The translations under genes were made by a program, and so were the position numbers. Under the pieces are notes generated by a model. That model was not told where the DNA came from. It searched no databases and worked only from the letters and a program-made list of their open reading frames with translations. Of a DNA stretch of 21,502 nucleotides, positions 8,439 to 16,556 are shown piece after piece. This DNA comes from a virus. Positions within the stretch are counted from its first letter, which is position 1. Every line of letters begins with the position of its first letter. Location of the stretch: positions 93,904 to 115,405 of IMG/VR virus record IMGVR_UViG_3300030331_002523; one strand, given 5' to 3'.

Positions 8439-8583
8439 TACGGATTATTTAAATAAAAAGTATTATATTATATATAAGAGGTGTAAGAGTTCAGGTTTGG
8501 GTACTTTTGCACTGGTATAGTAAACCCATTCTGTATTGTAATTTAATAAAGTCCTCTGAATAAAATAGGAGGCAATAGAAAAA
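8439..8583 (+). ncRNA. Structured 145-nt leader of the 445-aa structural gene
   Basis: There is no ATG in this gap. GTGTAAGAG (8481-8489) can pair with CTTTTGCAC (8504-8512) as a 9-bp stem with two G-U pairs and a 14-nt loop. The loop GGTTT (8494-8498) can pair with AAACC (8522-8526), giving a possible H-type pseudoknot. CCTCT (8553-8557) can pair either with AGAGG (8477-8481) or with GGAGG (8568-8572), the latter being the Shine-Dalgarno. These alternatives are mutually exclusive, as in a translational switch. An AT-rich promoter-like tract (8455-8476) lies before it. Pairings are read directly; function is inference. Confidence 0.45.
8567..8572 (+). promoter_or_regulatory. Canonical Shine-Dalgarno AGGAGG, the only one in the window
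   Basis: AGGAGG lies 11 bases before the ATG at 8584. Every other gene start here has A-rich or AT-rich leader with no such motif, as expected in Bacteroidota. The motif can be hidden by CCTCT at 8553-8557. Confidence 0.6.
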
Positions 8584-9921
8584 ATGGCTTATTTTAATCA
8601 TGCGTATAGACAGACGTGGGTACCTTCTAGTATTGTAAAAACTGCTGGAAAAGCTACATCTGCTCTAACAAAAGGTGAGTTAGCATTTATTGATGCTAGT
8701 ACTTACCAATCAGTTAAACAACCTGGTCCAGGATTAGGTTTAGGTACTAGTGGTGCTGCTGGAACAAATGCTGTTGTAGGTGTTGCAGGTACTGTAGGTA
8801 ATTCAGGAATGCCTACTGCTACTGGGTACTTATTAGCTCAAGGTAGTTTTAATTTAACTACTAATGCTGCAGGTAACCCTGCTTCTGTTGGATCTCTAGG
8901 TGCTGGTGATGATGTTCTTGGTGGAGCAATTCCTGCTAATAATTTAGATGGTAGCGTTAACTTCCATGGAGGTTATGCAGAATCTTACAAGAGTAAAATT
9001 ATTATACCAAAATTCCTTACTGCTTTATATGAGGATGATGCAGGATGTGATGCTGCAACTACTGCTGTAGTGGACATTCAAATTCCAAATAATTGTATTG
9101 AATGTGATGGTTCAACATCATTAAGAAATCAGATAAGATTAGATTTTAAAGGTAATGCAGTATTACGTTATTTAAACAGATTTGCATATTCAACTTACTA
9201 TATAAAAGATTGTTGTGCTGATATGTCTGGTCAAATACCTGGTGCAGCAGTTGCTACTGAATTTGCAGCACAAATTAATGCTGATCCAATTGTTAACCCT
9301 TTTGTTACTGCATCTACTCACACAGGTAATCAAGGTAATAATATTTTAAGATTAACTGTTGGTTATACACCTACTTTCTTTGATAACTGTTCATTTGACA
9401 CTAGAGATAATGTTGATCATGAACCACTAACTATGAAAGTTGGAGTATTAGATGAAGATGGTGATGTATGTGTAGATAGTTGTCTTACACAAAGAAAAGG
9501 AACTTCAGCTGCTTTTGCTAAATTTCCAACTAATCAAACAGTTAATGTTGTTCTTGCGAAAACAGAAAAAACTGGTGAGAATGTTTTAAGAGATCTAATT
9601 TTAGATAGAAGATATTCTCAAGATGGAGGACATAATCAAGGTAACAGAGACTCTGCTAGATTTAGAGAAATTGAAAAAGGTAATAATATCTTAGCTGCAG
9701 TTGATAGAACAAAATTTTATAGAAACTATAAGATTCAACATACTGTTCCTAGATTTAATAATCCTACTGGAGTATTTGACAATGATCAATATCTATATGA
9801 GATTCATGTAGAATGTGGTAGTGGTGGTAACACTTTATGGAGTGATATAAGTAAATTTATAACAGGTTTACATCTTGAAGCTAAAGCTGCTGGTAGATTT
9901 GTTCCTATACAAACTATATAA
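8584..9921 (+). CDS. Conserved Bacteroidota-phage structural protein, role unassigned
   Basis: The 445-aa product starts MAYFNHAYRQTW and ends with a conserved-looking block around residue 395 (HTVPRFNNPTGVFDND). I recognise both ends from a family common in uncultured aquatic Bacteroidota phages, always among virion genes, with no established function. Residues ~35-110 are Gly/Ala/Thr-rich low complexity; HGGYAESYKSK follows near residue 128; the middle contains paired cysteines (CIEC, CC). It lacks signal peptide and membrane segments. It forms its own transcription unit by appearance: a structured leader with a strong Shine-Dalgarno before it and a strong terminator 28 bases after it, which suggests high or separately controlled output. 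Major virion component (head decoration, fibre base or tail-associated) is the likeliest role. Confidence 0.65.
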   Translation: MAYFNHAYRQTWVPSSIVKTAGKATSALTKGELAFIDASTYQSVKQPGPGLGLGTSGAAGTNAVVGVAGTVGNSGMPTATGYLLAQGSFNLTTNAAGNPASVGSLGAGDDVLGGAIPANNLDGSVNFHGGYAESYKSKIIIPKFLTALYEDDAGCDAATTAVVDIQIPNNCIECDGSTSLRNQIRLDFKGNAVLRYLNRFAYSTYYIKDCCADMSGQIPGAAVATEFAAQINADPIVNPFVTASTHTGNQGNNILRLTVGYTPTFFDNCSFDTRDNVDHEPLTMKVGVLDEDGDVCVDSCLTQRKGTSAAFAKFPTNQTVNVVLAKTEKTGENVLRDLILDRRYSQDGGHNQGNRDSARFREIEKGNNILAAVDRTKFYRNYKIQHTVPRFNNPTGVFDNDQYLYEIHVECGSGGNTLWSDISKFITGLHLEAKAAGRFVPIQTI

Positions 9922-9948: not shown

Positions 9949-9982
9949 AAGGGTGGGTTGAAATATCCCACCCTTTTTTTTT
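9949..9982 (+). terminator. Strong intrinsic terminator after the 445-aa gene
   Basis: AAGGGTGGG (9949-9957) pairs with CCCACCCTT (9967-9975) around a 9-nt loop and runs into nine T residues (9974-9982). This is a textbook rho-independent terminator and separates the 445-aa gene from the appendage genes that follow. Confidence 0.92.
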
Positions 9983-9997
9983 CAATTCTTATTAATA

Positions 9998-10010
9998 TTT
10001 TGTATATTAT
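9998..10010 (+). promoter_or_regulatory. Candidate promoter element TTTTGTATATTAT
   Basis: This 13-mer lies just after the terminator and 38 bases before the ATG at 10049. The identical 13-mer occurs at 16590-16602, and a one-base variant at 19641-19653, all in intergenic gaps in the same orientation. A start here would drive the 181-aa, 45-aa and 1937-aa genes. Confidence 0.5.
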
Positions 10011-10048
10011 TAATAGATACTATTTTTACAATTTATAATTATAAATAA

Positions 10049-10594
10049 ATGGCAGCAAAACATATACTAAGCTTAGAAGTATTAAATGTGTCAAATCCAG
10101 AAGTGTTTGCTATAAAAGATACAAGCAAGTATGCTAAAAATCTTAAAGTAGACTGTCCTGAAGTTTTGATAACACCACCAGGTTTTAATAAACCTGCATT
10201 AATTAAAGTGCAAGAGGGGTTTGATTTAGTACTAGAATCATGTTCATTAGGGATACAAACTACAGATTGTAATACTCAAAGAACTGTAATACCAGATGGA
10301 TTATATATTATAAGATATCAAGTAAGCCCTCATAATAAAGTATTTGTTGAGTATAATTATTTACGTATTACTAATATCATGAAAACATGGTATGATAAAT
10401 TATGTAAACTTGACATACAAGCATGTGAACCATCTAGAGATAGGCAAGCATTATTAGATGAAATGATGGATATTAAGCTATATATAGATGCTGCTAAAGC
10501 TAAAGTTGAATATTGTGCTAGTCCAGAAGCAGGATTAGAACTTTATACTTATGCTAAATCTAAATTAAATAAGATAACTTGTTCAAACTGTTAA
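10049..10594 (+). CDS. Conserved 181-aa virion-island protein, unknown function
   Basis: Two parts are visible. Residues ~1-115 are beta-rich (TPPGFNKPALIKV, then SCSLGIQTTDC, then DGLYIIRYQVSP), like a small beta-sandwich. Residues ~118-181 are helical with regularly spaced cysteines (LCKLDIQACEP, VEYCASPE, and the terminal CSNC). I recognise the family from Bacteroidota phages, where it accompanies large cysteine-rich fibre genes; no function is known to me. It has no signal peptide or membrane segment. It is the first gene after a terminator and a candidate promoter, and is followed 18 bases later by the zinc-ribbon-like gene, so it likely heads the adhesin operon. A chaperone, adaptor or anchoring subunit for the giant fibre would fit. 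Confidence 0.6.
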   Translation: MAAKHILSLEVLNVSNPEVFAIKDTSKYAKNLKVDCPEVLITPPGFNKPALIKVQEGFDLVLESCSLGIQTTDCNTQRTVIPDGLYIIRYQVSPHNKVFVEYNYLRITNIMKTWYDKLCKLDIQACEPSRDRQALLDEMMDIKLYIDAAKAKVEYCASPEAGLELYTYAKSKLNKITCSNC

Positions 10595-10612: not shown

Positions 10613-10750
10613 ATGGCAGCAACATGTAAACACTGCAAAAAACAAATAGGCTGCGGATGTCAAAAGACAAAAGCAAAAGATGGAGCAACTGTATGCAAAC
10701 AATGCGTGCATGTTTATAATGCATCATTAGATAATAAAAAAAATGGCTAA
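10613..10750 (+). CDS. 45-aa zinc-ribbon-like micro-protein
   Basis: The ORF encodes MAATCKHCKKQ followed by GCGC and later CKQC. Cysteines at residues 5, 8, 14, 16, 28 and 31 make CxxC, CxC and CxxC pairs, enough for one zinc ribbon or a binuclear site. The start has a nine-base A run before ATGGCA, the same context as neighbouring genes, and the stop (10748-10750) overlaps the ATG of the 1937-aa gene by eight bases, which suggests translational coupling. Lys/Cys-rich content and the clean junctions argue it is real despite its size. Possible roles are a small virion/assembly factor for the cysteine-rich fibres, a nucleic-acid-binding regulator, or a metal donor; none can be chosen from sequence. 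Confidence 0.7.
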   Translation: MAATCKHCKKQIGCGCQKTKAKDGATVCKQCVHVYNASLDNKKNG

Positions 10751-13700
10751 GAATAAAAAAGATTACACGGTTAAAAAGATAAACATAGAGCGTGATTTTG
10801 CAGATGAAGTGTTTAAAAAGTATAAGTATAACAGATACGGAGTAGGATCTTGTTGTACCTCAAACTTCACATCAAAGTTAAATACCAAATATATATGTGA
10901 TTATCAAGATAGTGAAATTTTTAGATATTCAAATAAAGTTACAACAACTACAAAGTATGTAGTACCAACTGAAGGAGCTGCTGATGACGCTGATAGACCA
11001 GCGTGGGTAGATGCTTTATGTGGTATGGCAAATGAAGATGTTCAAATATATTGTTATTATGATGCATCATCTTTAACAGCTGATGATGTTTTAAAAGCAC
11101 ATTTAGCAGTAAAACAATGGATAGATTCATTAGGAGGACAAAATAATTCACTAAGTGGTTGCCCCAGCCCTCAAGGTCTTATTCAAGATTTTCATGTTTC
11201 AGTAGCAGGAGAAAGATGGTTAGATTGGGCAATACAACCTATAACAGGAGTTTTTAATAATTCAGGATCTTGTGGAGGTGTAGATTCAGGATGTAATACA
11301 AATACACCACCGGTTGATTTTGGTCCTTGTGTACAAGCAACATTTTCAGATGCAGTTCTTCCTTCAAATGTTAATTCTAAAATGTGGCAAACATTAAAGT
11401 TATTTGAAAATAATGGCTTTACATTATATAACAGTGGAGGTGCTGGAGCAAATGTAAGTGGTACATATGCATTAACTAATCCTACAATAGGTTTACCACC
11501 TATTGCAACTGCAAAAAATGTTTTAGTAATAGTATTTGCAGATGAATCAGCACAAGGTAGTACAGATGGTTCAGTAGCACAACCATATCATAATAGATCA
11601 AGTATAGTACCTCCTACAGCAATGACATGGGCTGCCGCAACTATAGGTACAGGATCTGCAGCAAATGGATCAGATGCAACATTAACACCATGTTGGAAAG
11701 CTGATCATCAAGAGTTTGTATCCCAAAGAAATACATATTTATCTCAAAATCCTACACATCAATTTAAATGTTTTTTATATCCTACAAGGCCTACTACTAT
11801 TACAGATACTCATAGACCATTTGGTTTACATGCATTAGGGGCTATAACTTCAGGAAATGGTATAAGCGCTTCTGCTACAGGAAAAATTGTTTTTGTTTCA
11901 ACAGGTCTTTCAATAGGTCAAACAATTCAAATAGTATCAACAACAGGTATAACAAAAACATATACTGCTGGTGCAGCTGAGAATCTTACAACTAATACAT
12001 TTAATGCTAATGCAAATGGTCTTGTCAATGTTGCTTTATCATTAAAAGCATGTATAGAAGATCCAGCAGGACATAATGGTCAAATAGGTGTACTTTTTTC
12101 TCAAAATACTTCTTTTCAACCGGTATTAAATTTAACTCAAGCTGCACCAGGTGGATTAGGAAATACAACAATTACTTCTAATTTAACAAATGTAACAGTT
12201 ACAAACTTTACAGGAGGTTCTCCTAATGGTACATTTATTCTTGATAATACTTTACCAAATAATGGAGCTCCTTTTTGCTCATTAGCAAATTTAGAAAATA
12301 TAACTTTAGGTAATCCATATTATAGTCAAGGCTATGGTGCTTTAGATCAACATGGTTGGGGTATTGATGTATCAACATTAGAATTCCAACCTCAACAATT
12401 TGCAGATGATATAAATGAATTTGCTGATGTAACAACATGTCAAGACACAGAATGTTTATTATTTGTTATATCAGATCAAAATGGAAATAGAGTAGAGGGT
12501 TATGAAATAATATGGAATGGTGGTGTTATAGGAGAAACAGATGAAAATGGATTATTTAGATTTTGTGTAGAAAATGCATCTATTGATAATAATCATATAT
12601 TTGATTTATGTACATGTATTACTACAACAGGAAATTGTAATTCACAAAAAATATCTGTAACTGTAACAGATGATACATGTGTGGAAGACTGTCCAGATAG
12701 ACCACATGAGCAGTGTTATATTCCTCCAGTTATTTCATCTGGAAATGAAAATAAAGGTTGCACAGATCCTAACGCATGTAATTATAATCCATTAGCAACT
12801 ACAGATGATGGTTCATGTACTTATTGTTGTACATTCTTTGCAAGTGTGGATTCAAAAACTGATGCTACAGGTGGAGCAGATAATGGTGAAATAAGTATAG
12901 TAGTTGGTGGTGGTGTTAGTCCTTATACTTTTCAATGGTTTAAGAATGGAGTTGCATATGCTACAACTCAAAATTTAACAGGTCTAGGTGGTGGTGTTTA
13001 TTCAGTAATAGTTACTGACTCATCAACAAATCCTCCTTGTACTACTCAATTAGTTATAACTATTGATCAACCACCAGCAATAATTTTTGGTTGTACTGAT
13101 TCTTTAGCCTGTAACTATGATGCAACAGCTAATCAAGATGATGGTAGTTGTTTATTTAAAGGATGTACTGATCCTACCGCTACAAATTATGATCCAGCAG
13201 CAACAGCAGATTGTAATTGTAATCCTCCTTCTTCTCCTTTATATCAAAATGATACTGGTTGGGATTCTTGTTGTATACCATGTATATTTGGGTGTATGGA
13301 TGCTAATGCAAATAACTATAATGCACAAGCAACATGTGATGACGGATCTTGTACATATAACTATAATTGTGTAGAAGTTCCTGGATCAGGGGTTACTGTA
13401 AATTATTTAGATAGCTCACTTGGCCCAAGTAATTTAACTACAGCAATAGCTCCATGTTTAATGGATGCAACTGGAGAACAATTAGCTTATACTAATGGTC
13501 TTACTGACAGATGTAGCACTGCTGTTAATATTGCTACAGCACCATTTGATAATTCAGATGAAATGTTACAATATATGACAACAGAATTATCATGGCAAAC
13601 TAGTATAAATAATGGACCTGATATAACACAATATATATTACCATATGATTTAAATGCAGGATATAATACAGATTGCCCTGTTTGTGATGTACCTCCGTTT

Positions 13701-16556
13701 CCTGGAGTAGTAAATACAGCTCCTGCAAATCCAATAAGAATTACATGGAATTTCTTATATAATTGGGCTAGTTTAATACCGAATTCAGTTCAAGATAGTT
13801 TAGGTCTTTATGCATATAAATATTATACTGATTTAACTGAACTTTATAGTGACATAAATATATTATTAACAAATAATACTATTGCCTTGAATGATGCATC
13901 CGGAAATGCTATTACTTCTGTGGGATCATTTACAGGATCTGGACCTACTTCAGGGACTCTTAATACTAATGAGATTAATACAGCTTTTAATAATGCTCCT
14001 TATGGATATCTTACTTCTACTTCAAGTACTCAGAAAATAGCTCCAAATATTACTATGGATTTTGCATTATGTCAATGTACTGTAATACAAAATACACAAT
14101 GTGAATGTCAAGAAATGTTTGATGGAACAGGTATATACCCTACATTATCTGATTGTACAAATGCTTTAACATGTTGTAATGATAATCCACCTGAATTACC
14201 ATGGGAATGTATGGAGGGTAGTTTTACTGACTCATGTCAAAACTTAGAAATATTTTCATCTACTGTAGCATATCCAAATGATACAGCAGCTATTAATGCA
14301 TGGACAACTGATGCTACTTTTTTAAATAATCCTAATCTGGGTAGTTATAAATTTTTACATTTAGGTACAACAGGAACCTGCACAACAACAACTACTGGAG
14401 GAACACCATCATATTGGAAAAAGTTTGATTTTATTGAACTTACACAATTTGATCCTACTACATCAACATTTGTTTCAATAGGTGTTGTTGGTAATGGTTG
14501 GTCTTGGTTTAGTCTTTGTAACTATATGTTTAATCAAGGACTAAATGGAACTGGTGGTTTTCCTAACGCTTTAAATATTCCTTCTTATATGCAGATGAAA
14601 AGTGTTATTGAGTCAAATAATGGATCAGGAGAATTATTACAAGGTTTTGAAATACATTTTCAAGTATCTGATTGTAACTGTGATTATCAAAATTGTCAAT
14701 GTATACAAAGTCCTAATGGAACATTTGCTCAAGAAGCAGATTGTACAGCTGTATGTTGTGGTGGTTCTAGTTTGAATGAGGTGCCAGGTTGTACACAACA
14801 GTCTGCTGCAAATTATAATCCAGGTGCTACAGTTGACGATGGTTCTTGCTATGTATGCTCACCAGCTCCAGATGACTTTAATGTTCCAGGTAGTGTAGGT
14901 GTAATTAGTTATACTGCAGATACTAGTGGAAGCACTGATCCATCAGCATATAATGTAGCAGATGGTAGTGTTGTAATTCTACCAAGTACTTTTATAAATG
15001 GTATACAAATTCCAGGATCATTACAAAGTTATACAGCAAGCCTTTTTGGTTCTACTAATGGTCAGGGATCTCCTTTAGTAAGTGATCAAGTATTCCAAAA
15101 TACAATTATATTTGATGGTTTAGATGCGGATGCTTACACAGTTGTTTTTTCACATAGTGATTATCCTGAATGTGAATTTACCGTTCAAGTTTCATTAGCT
15201 AATGCAATACCACAAATTAAATATAAATGTGTACCAGGTAACTTAGTTGATAGTACAGAAGATTTAGTATTTGTTAATGCTTTATCAAGTGATTTACAGT
15301 CTTCTGTTTCTGCATTTGCTAATGATGATGCATTTATAGATGCTATGACTACTCATGCTGTTGGACAAGATTTACAATCAATGTGGGGTTTTGTTGCGGG
15401 TAGTACAGATATAAATAAGTGTTATAGTGACTTATGGGGTGGTACTAAAAAAGTATTTGGAGTGCTTAAAGTTCTTGACGGAGATAGTGTTCTTGTCTCA
15501 AGTGATCCAGCTCAACCTTCAACATGGTTAGATTATGTAAAAGCGGCAATTATAATTATTAATGGTGCAGTTAGTGGAGTATATATAAATAATCCTAAAG
15601 TTTATTCAAGTAATTATTCAGCATTAAATGCATTTTTAGGTAGTGTTAAAGCAGGGTTGAGAGTTCTTATAGAAGTAGCAGATGCACAATGTACAGCATC
15701 ACAAACACAATGTTTACCAGATGTAGATGGTGTATATAATAGTATATCTGAATGTTTAGAAAGTGCATTATGTCCAACAACTATAACTGGTACAAATGTA
15801 GGATGTAATCAGGTTGCAAATGCTAATCCAACAAATGTTGTAACAGGGCAAAATACACAAACAACATTCTATCCTAATAATGATCATTGTTTATGGTGTA
15901 GTAGTTTTAATGGAGGTGTTGGAACAAACCCTTCTCTTCCTCAGTTTGGTTTTGATAAAACAGGAAGTCTTAATGTAGCTGCTATATATGCACCAATAGC
16001 AGCTTCTAATCCGGTAGATTTAATCATTCAAGTTAGAAGTGTTGTTGCTGACTTAAACAACTCACCAGGTTCTGTGATATATGCTAATTATGATCCGGCA
16101 GTAGATAAATTATATCCTGGTGTTTATTACGTTGTACTTATAGATAACGGTAATCAATTAAATGGAGGAACATCATCAACTACAAGATGTGTACAAACAA
16201 AACTTGTAGGTGTTGCTGCAGATGATGCAAATGCTAAGTTAAATAATGGCGGATTCCCAACAGTGGAATGGGGTAATAGTACGGGTAATCCTCAGAATAA
16301 TTTTATACCGGATACTGCTATAACTATAGATAATACTAATAATACCATTACATTTGATTTAAACCCAGTAAACGGAACATACAGTATAGGAATATTAACT
16401 AGTTCAGGTTCTCCAGCTGATATACCTCAGACAGGCGTAACACAATATACAACAAATAGTTTAGCACCAGATACATATATGGTAATTATGACTGTTGATG
16501 CGGGTAATGCAAATGCAGGGGCTAAAGCAACTGTACGTAATATAGTAATAACATAA
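10743..16556 (+). CDS. Giant modular cysteine-rich fibre/adhesin-like protein (1937 aa)
   Basis: Probably a tail or head appendage that contacts the host surface. Domains in order: residues ~1-370 plus ~497-560, an alpha/beta head resembling a von Willebrand A fold (YYDASS at D107, VIVFADES at D267; degenerate MIDAS, tentative); ~373-496, an inserted Thr/Asn/Gly-rich beta domain with TYTAGAAENLT and GNTTIT, seen in many phage fibres; ~571-650, a carboxypeptidase-regulatory-like beta domain (TDENGLFRF); ~697-781, a SprB/PKD-like repeat (SPYTFQWFKNG ... GGGVYSVIVTD); five GCTD...DDGSC repeats; three long modules each closing with a Cys-rich cap; ~1680-1937, beta-rich C-terminus. By my count about 77 cysteines, against four in the portal. 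There is no signal peptide, fitting phage release by lysis. It begins inside the 45-aa gene and no terminator follows. Confidence 0.72.
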   Translation: MAKNKKDYTVKKINIERDFADEVFKKYKYNRYGVGSCCTSNFTSKLNTKYICDYQDSEIFRYSNKVTTTTKYVVPTEGAADDADRPAWVDALCGMANEDVQIYCYYDASSLTADDVLKAHLAVKQWIDSLGGQNNSLSGCPSPQGLIQDFHVSVAGERWLDWAIQPITGVFNNSGSCGGVDSGCNTNTPPVDFGPCVQATFSDAVLPSNVNSKMWQTLKLFENNGFTLYNSGGAGANVSGTYALTNPTIGLPPIATAKNVLVIVFADESAQGSTDGSVAQPYHNRSSIVPPTAMTWAAATIGTGSAANGSDATLTPCWKADHQEFVSQRNTYLSQNPTHQFKCFLYPTRPTTITDTHRPFGLHALGAITSGNGISASATGKIVFVSTGLSIGQTIQIVSTTGITKTYTAGAAENLTTNTFNANANGLVNVALSLKACIEDPAGHNGQIGVLFSQNTSFQPVLNLTQAAPGGLGNTTITSNLTNVTVTNFTGGSPNGTFILDNTLPNNGAPFCSLANLENITLGNPYYSQGYGALDQHGWGIDVSTLEFQPQQFADDINEFADVTTCQDTECLLFVISDQNGNRVEGYEIIWNGGVIGETDENGLFRFCVENASIDNNHIFDLCTCITTTGNCNSQKISVTVTDDTCVEDCPDRPHEQCYIPPVISSGNENKGCTDPNACNYNPLATTDDGSCTYCCTFFASVDSKTDATGGADNGEISIVVGGGVSPYTFQWFKNGVAYATTQNLTGLGGGVYSVIVTDSSTNPPCTTQLVITIDQPPAIIFGCTDSLACNYDATANQDDGSCLFKGCTDPTATNYDPAATADCNCNPPSSPLYQNDTGWDSCCIPCIFGCMDANANNYNAQATCDDGSCTYNYNCVEVPGSGVTVNYLDSSLGPSNLTTAIAPCLMDATGEQLAYTNGLTDRCSTAVNIATAPFDNSDEMLQYMTTELSWQTSINNGPDITQYILPYDLNAGYNTDCPVCDVPPFPGVVNTAPANPIRITWNFLYNWASLIPNSVQDSLGLYAYKYYTDLTELYSDINILLTNNTIALNDASGNAITSVGSFTGSGPTSGTLNTNEINTAFNNAPYGYLTSTSSTQKIAPNITMDFALCQCTVIQNTQCECQEMFDGTGIYPTLSDCTNALTCCNDNPPELPWECMEGSFTDSCQNLEIFSSTVAYPNDTAAINAWTTDATFLNNPNLGSYKFLHLGTTGTCTTTTTGGTPSYWKKFDFIELTQFDPTTSTFVSIGVVGNGWSWFSLCNYMFNQGLNGTGGFPNALNIPSYMQMKSVIESNNGSGELLQGFEIHFQVSDCNCDYQNCQCIQSPNGTFAQEADCTAVCCGGSSLNEVPGCTQQSAANYNPGATVDDGSCYVCSPAPDDFNVPGSVGVISYTADTSGSTDPSAYNVADGSVVILPSTFINGIQIPGSLQSYTASLFGSTNGQGSPLVSDQVFQNTIIFDGLDADAYTVVFSHSDYPECEFTVQVSLANAIPQIKYKCVPGNLVDSTEDLVFVNALSSDLQSSVSAFANDDAFIDAMTTHAVGQDLQSMWGFVAGSTDINKCYSDLWGGTKKVFGVLKVLDGDSVLVSSDPAQPSTWLDYVKAAIIIINGAVSGVYINNPKVYSSNYSALNAFLGSVKAGLRVLIEVADAQCTASQTQCLPDVDGVYNSISECLESALCPTTITGTNVGCNQVANANPTNVVTGQNTQTTFYPNNDHCLWCSSFNGGVGTNPSLPQFGFDKTGSLNVAAIYAPIAASNPVDLIIQVRSVVADLNNSPGSVIYANYDPAVDKLYPGVYYVVLIDNGNQLNGGTSSTTRCVQTKLVGVAADDANAKLNNGGFPTVEWGNSTGNPQNNFIPDTAITIDNTNNTITFDLNPVNGTYSIGILTSSGSPADIPQTGVTQYTTNSLAPDTYMVIMTVDAGNANAGAKATVRNIVIT
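12756..13352 (+). repeat. Four GCTD...DDGSC repeats in the giant fibre
   Basis: Copies at 12756-12818, 13089-13151, 13161-13220 and 13290-13352 (residues 672-692, 783-803, 807-826, 850-870) are 20-21 codons each: GC-x-D at the start, NY-N/D near the middle, DDGSC at the end (the third copy ends ADCNC instead). A SprB-like domain separates copies one and two. Synonymous codons differ between copies, so these are old duplications. Confidence 0.9.
13368..14177 (+). repeat. Long fibre module A
   Basis: Residues 876-1145. Opens with CVEVPGSG and closes with a Cys-rich cap, CECQ ... GTGIYPT ... DCTNALTCC (14100-14177). At 270 residues it is the longest and most divergent of three modules with the same opening and cap. 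Confidence 0.55.
14208..14759 (+). repeat. Long fibre module B
   Basis: Residues 1156-1339. Opens with CMEGSFTDS and closes with CQC ... NGTFAQE ... DCTAVCC (14694-14759). Its core, FDFIEL ... STFVSIGVV ... WFSLCNYMFNQG, aligns by eye with the core of module C. Confidence 0.6.
14787..14849 (+). repeat. Fifth GCTD...DDGSC repeat
   Basis: Residues 1349-1369: GCTQ at the start, NYNPGAT in the middle, DDGSC at the end. It lies just after the cap of module B, about 480 residues from the other four copies. Confidence 0.85.
15228..15773 (+). repeat. Long fibre module C
   Basis: Residues 1496-1677. Opens with CVPGNLVDS and closes with QCLP ... DGVYNSI ... ECLESALC (15711-15773). Core FGVLKVLDGDSVLVSS ... 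WLDYVKAAIIIING parallels module B; length 182 versus 184 residues. Confidence 0.6.

Follow-up and report, generated by a model that had tools for sequence, protein, structure and literature searches.

A covarying leader RNA with a predicted pseudoknot and start-proximal hairpin upstream of the capsid auxiliary protein gene of uncultured crAss-like phages

Comparison of related sequences indicates that the leader of a capsid auxiliary protein gene (AUX) in crAss-like phages is a genuine structured, conserved, cis-acting RNA element. Two of its helices, S1 and S2, are predicted to form an H-type pseudoknot that is maintained by compensatory changes, and a third, the bulged hairpin H3, adjoins the start site. 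As far as comparison with Rfam, blast and the literature shows, the element is undescribed.

The phage, the gene and its transcript

The window, the whole 21,502-nt stretch of DNA that was analysed, makes up the final 21.5 kb of a virus record 115,405 bp long. Its portal, terminase and MCP have matches in phage families; in tblastn the portal had matches in crAss-like phages, Cellulophaga phi17:2 and Leptolyngbya phage Lbo-JY46. The carriers of the element are a group of crAss-like phages, uncultured and mostly known from seawater. A host search in bacterial genome bins was uninformative, giving three matches in unrelated bins (Pseudomonadales, Sphingomonadaceae and Patescibacteria). The start sites of the genome are Bacteroidota-like: across 87 ORFs of the 115,405-bp record they are A-rich at -3, -6 and -11 to -14, and an A-rich pattern at such positions has been described for Bacteroidia (PMC9976891, PMC8710568). 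Bacteroidota use A-rich, weakly structured start sites and ignore the Shine-Dalgarno (SD) sequence (PMC9976891). The features discussed below are as follows.

near 8441-8444, + strand: weak T/G-rich, -33-like region (T/G enrichment 20-23 nt upstream of the promoter motif)
8464-8470, + strand: promoter-like element TATATTA (-7/-10 type), a shared motif
8480-8490, + strand: S1 5' arm, 11 bp with 8503-8513
8491-8497, + strand: loop L1 (TCAGGTT), from alignment A2
8498-8502, + strand: S2 (pseudoknot) 5' arm TGGGT, predicted to pair with 8524-8528
8503-8513, + strand: S1 3' arm, from the covariation count
8514-8523, + strand: loop L3, crossing S1, from alignment A2
8524-8528, + strand: S2 (pseudoknot) 3' arm ACCCA, from the covariation count and helix scan
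8529-8550, + strand: A/U-rich linker of variable length, from alignment A2
8551-8557, + strand: H3 5' arm, G-(T bulge)-CCTCT, from 35 leaders with 23 distinct hairpins
8558-8567, + strand: H3 loop GAATAAAATA, one of about six recurring alleles, from allele comparison
8568-8573, + strand: H3 3' arm GGAGGC, which with A8567 makes up the SD-like AGGAGG
8574-8583, + strand: A-rich spacer to AUG, 10 nt in the window, from leader comparison
8584-9921, + strand: AUX, a predicted relative of phicrAss001 gp36, from an AlphaFold2 model, structure match and gene order
9950-9982, + strand: putative intrinsic terminator, AGGGTGGG-loop-CCCACCCT plus T run, with a perfect 8-bp stem

AUX is without a sequence-level match in phages by tblastn. 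The best match of its AlphaFold2 model (mean pLDDT 71.8) was phicrAss001 gp36 (PDB 7qof chain a; Foldseek E 1.6e-6), with a VIA Z of 15.2 over 291 of 333 residues, and the modelled fold identifies the product as a crAss-like capsid auxiliary protein. In the window the gene lies after the MCP and ring-type genes, with portal, MCP and phrog_29507 as neighbours, and the order portal, MCP, ring-type genes, AUX recurs in phicrAss001, phi17:2 and csAssE-Sib. As the phicrAss001 asymmetric unit holds nine gp36 per nine MCP (PMC10172136) and the gene order matches, AUX is probably needed in about MCP numbers. The window also encodes a probable tail fibre of 1937 aa (10743-16556) with repeated GCTDPNACNYNPLATTDDGSC-like Cys-rich units.

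The promoter motif is shared by 141 of the 146 distinct upstream regions, and in the window S1 follows TATATTA directly, starting within about 10 nt, so that transcription would start near 8475-8478. A start downstream of 8512, which a previous reading made from the sequence alone (the sequence-only reading) had named as counting against a leader RNA, is unlikely given this conserved motif just before S1. Of 123 distinct AUX leaders, 72 have a stem of 5 bp or more after the motif, where shuffles predict 36.5. A promoter-like motif, GTATATTAT, occurs again at 9990-10048, immediately after the AUX terminator and before the gene at 10049-10594. With a promoter just upstream, a terminator downstream and a new promoter-like motif beyond it, the AUX gene looks like a single-gene transcript and is likely to be monocistronic. 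Several relatives have an ORF in the gap between the ring-type gene and the AUX leader: a short Lys-rich one (for example MKTKKPGTAKVMAKSVYKKGGSTKKKKKRSKKKKY) in L004-L009, L089, L091 and L096, a small holin-like one (MEKEQIFGLIRHALTIIGGALVAKGY...) ahead of the AUX promoter in L109, L118, L119 and L128, and one that by eye is ferritin/Dps-like in L122-L127, L130-L133 and L140-L141.

Covariation and the 5' pseudoknot

Relatives were collected with the downstream gene (55 loci in viral contigs), with a DNA pattern of the loop (15 stretches, including two new true members) and with the upstream ring-type gene (80 further loci); three more gene queries contributed additional members. Two pattern matches, L065 and L070, were dropped as chance matches inside genes. 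Removal of duplicates left 146 distinct upstream regions, which were read. H3 is present in 35 of these, and 21 of the 35 carry the pseudoknot type of the window (type A); covariation was counted on 19 distinct type A leaders in alignment A2.

Across these 19 leaders S1, S2 and H3 together pair in 94.5% of cells, against 84.7% when shuffled and 45-52% in a slide control with shifts of 1-3 columns. Both-sided changes occur in 13 of 22 pairs (40 cells), a level reached by none of 500 shuffles. An unbiased scan of 2,792 possible 5-bp helices returned S1, S2 and H3 as the only ones both well paired and covarying, with S2 as the best helix other than S1, and the three can coexist. The 9-bp stem of the sequence-only reading corresponds to S1, which is real and runs to 10-11 bp (8480-8490 with 8503-8513); it is paired in 94.7% of cells, with both-sided change in 7 of 11 pairs. 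A loop pseudoknot had also been foreseen correctly but in another register: GGTTT (8494-8498) with AAACC (8522-8526) is paired in 84.2% of cells against 83.3% shuffled and has no both-sided change, whereas TGGGT (8498-8502) with ACCCA (8524-8528) is replaced in other leaders by TGACT/AGTCA, CGGCT/AGCCG and TGGCT/AGCCA. In L011, read by eye, S2 is TAGGC/GCCTA.

The folding energy of the single leader sequence is ordinary (z -0.21), and the structure is therefore visible only by comparing relatives. Two other readings of these letters were set aside. A palindrome at the DNA level is disfavoured by the many G-U pairs and the pseudoknot topology. The fold of the single sequence also suggested that the 3' arm of S2 pairs around the start codon; judged only by eye, this pairing does not vary along with MAYF/MSYF at the start. 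A covariance model at E < 0.1 has the AUX leader as its sole match in each of the nine records matched at that level, and its other matches in the genome of the window (E 0.19 and 2.3) are without leader-like context. The loop motif matches the genome exactly once, and a second match, with one mismatch, falls inside the AUX gene; a search of the genome for an antisense partner gave one 13-mer match only, far away.

We considered whether the H-type pseudoknot could be a ligand-binding riboswitch. SAM-V and SAM/SAH riboswitches are formed by H-type pseudoknots (PMC6061858, PMC7367207), and letters of loop L1 are conserved in the leader, with A8493, G8494 and T8497 invariant in the 19 leaders of alignment A2. 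SAM-II, SAM-V, SAM/SAH and preQ1 riboswitches likewise place a small H-type pseudoknot in a 5' leader. In the AUX leader, however, the S2 3' arm is not the SD and the gene, which encodes a shell protein, is without a metabolic role; these four classes gave no match in the window even at E 10, and no Rfam family matched the window or its relatives at curated score. There is also no conserved mutually exclusive pairing, and unrelated stems replace the pseudoknot in sister clades. We consider a riboswitch highly improbable.

The replacements take several forms. Another H-type pseudoknot of different sequence (type B) precedes the same H3 in L205, L206, L208, L209, L213 and L214, where the pairing was read by eye; in one example S1 is GTACTATC/GATAGTAC and S2 is GTCCA/TGGAC. 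Clade C leaders have a plain 5' stem and H3; more distant relatives, like clade C, have plain hairpins in place of the pseudoknot. In the ring-protein tree A and C form one group (94/84), within which H3 is present in every leader, and B is separate, with eight rows without H3 between. No such leader was found in the nearest database phages checked (crAss001, phi17:2 and csAssE-Sib), and Lbo-JY46 has only a 25-nt gap at the corresponding place. With replacements in some relatives and no counterpart in the closest cultured ones checked, the pseudoknot is not generally essential. An alternative leader design, with a 5' hairpin, a CAG...CTG hairpin and a start-proximal hairpin, is seen in L120, L121, L138, L146 and L217-L229; the stem of their start-proximal hairpin varies and its loop is GTAATGGT.

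The start-proximal hairpin and its SD-like arm

H3 has the form A-G-H-CC-(2-4 bp)-loop-GG-C-A, where the bulged H is T, A or C. In the 35 leaders (23 distinct hairpins) its lower stem G-H-CC/GGC is invariant, in a set that was chosen by a pattern itself requiring AGNCC...GGC, and the upper pairs covary (CTCT/GGAG, CACT/GGTG, CTG/CAG, CTAG/CTAG and CAG/CTG). The linker and the 5' domain vary while H3 stays, and it lies 8-11 nt from the AUG in each of the 34 leaders where this could be measured. The loop alleles show 13 changes on a 27-row tree where five would suffice; L102 and L113 have near-identical ring proteins and different H3 alleles, and a 27-nt sequence, AAAGTCCTTTGAATAAAATAGGAGGCA, is found both in type A leaders (L011, L185) and in type C leaders (L163, L113). 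One reading of this swapping between close relatives is exchange of hairpin cassettes by recombination.

The sequence-only reading had drawn attention to AGGAGG at 8567-8572 as the only canonical SD. The hexamer is there, and although the window holds 11 copies of AGGAGG over both strands, this is the sole one in SD position; among the 87 ORFs of the record only the AUX gene has GGAGG or AGGAG within 20 nt of its ATG. The central observation of that reading holds: a virion gene is preceded by a structured leader RNA, and next to its start codon lies an SD-like sequence found in that position nowhere else in the genome. It went on to propose that H3 hides a working SD, that pairing of CCTCT with AGAGG frees it, and that the gene may be translated under a special regime, for example by ribosomes poor in bS21 or carrying a phage bS21. 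Besides the uniqueness of the sequence, this could draw on the anti-SD pairing energies predicted for the leaders, which reach -6 kcal/mol or better in 21 of 34 but in only 1 of 87 ORFs of the genome, and on the precedent of rpsU in Flavobacterium (PMC9976891). CCTCT (8553-8557) and AGAGG (8477-8481) are both present, and CCTCT does pair with GGAGG (8568-8572) in H3, but its pairing with AGAGG occurs in 63.8% of cells against 61.7% shuffled, without covariation. With that alternative at shuffle level and the helices of the scan mutually compatible, an on/off switch is not supported. Nor do homologous leaders preserve the SD: all 35 have the hairpin, but GGAGG occurs in only 15 of them, the 3' arm being CAGG, CTAGG, CTGG or GGTGG elsewhere, and 13 of 34 leaders retain the hairpin without good anti-SD complementarity. 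A phage bS21 was not found in the 115-kb record, which may be incomplete. We regard the hidden SD as very doubtful. These counts point to the hairpin as the conserved feature; its SD-like arm is common but dispensable, and may have a role in some members.

Possible functions of the leader

The best explanation overall, and in our view a probable one, is that the element is the cis-acting leader of a single-gene AUX transcript, in which pseudoknot and H3 act on mRNA lifetime and initiation. The most likely role of the leader is to set how strongly the mRNA of a stoichiometric shell protein is translated, how long that mRNA lasts, or both. We propose that the transcript begins just before S1, that decay is slowed by the pseudoknot capping its 5' end, and that H3 works at initiation, most likely as a site for a protein or the 30S subunit that adjoins an A-rich, SD-independent start site. 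Together these would determine how much of a shell protein, required in about MCP copy number, is made and when. A specific form of this, in which H3 takes the position of the SD/anti-SD helix and the 30S platform of anti-SD-hiding ribosomes binds it, seems to us rather improbable; if true, an abundant phage structural protein would have a hairpin-directed, SD-independent initiation signal with interchangeable hairpin alleles. We note that G at -12/-13 lowers translation in Flavobacterium reporters (PMC9976891) and, as H3 puts G residues at these positions, it could repress rather than help.

Another possibility, which we hold to be unlikely though credible, is an autogenous or trans-acting operator, with AUX or another phage protein binding the pseudoknot and/or H3 late in infection and blocking initiation. 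The T4 gene 32 leader is an autogenous operator in which a coaxial H-type pseudoknot is followed by an A/U-rich stretch and the start site, and gp32 represses (PMC3014915). The AUX leader shares this layout, and its fixed H3-AUG spacing and invariant bulged G-H-CC/GGC, which resembles a recognition site, would fit an operator. However, the AUX leader controls a capsid auxiliary protein rather than an ssDNA-binding protein, carries an extra bulged hairpin 8-11 nt from AUG, and has no sequence relation to the T4 leader that we could find; as the gene differs, we do not class it with the gene 32 operators. AUX is a candidate ligand only, no RNA-binding domain being suggested for the gp36-like protein among the matches listed, and the H3 loop sequences often switch between close relatives.

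It is also conceivable, though unlikely, that the leader is purely an mRNA stabiliser, in which the 5' structures only guard the end of a late transcript and H3 only keeps the start site unpaired. The closeness of S1 to the promoter motif in the window, the unrelated 5' stems of the sister clades and a single-gene transcript that is probably highly used would all agree with this, but it leaves the invariant lower stem of H3, its bulge and its tight distance to AUG unexplained.

Among other leaders, that of Flavobacteriales rpsU likewise has an SD-like AGGAGG before the gene in a Bacteroidota-like translation setting. There the extended SD is used as such, in an SD-dependent gene autoregulated by bS21 (PMC9976891), whereas the SD-like sequence of the AUX leader forms one side of a conserved hairpin and is itself not kept across relatives. 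The phicrAss001 gp36 locus has the same kind of gene in similar order, but a 31-nt gap without such a leader precedes gp36. Blast against phage records gave spurious A/T-rich matches only, and no description of crAss-like leader RNAs was found in the literature searched.

The AUX leader adds a strongly covarying RNA element without an Rfam family to what is seen in uncultured crAss-like phages. Its fixed hairpin-AUG distance in an SD-poor genome may offer a handle on how initiation at strong genes is achieved when ribosomes hide their anti-SD.
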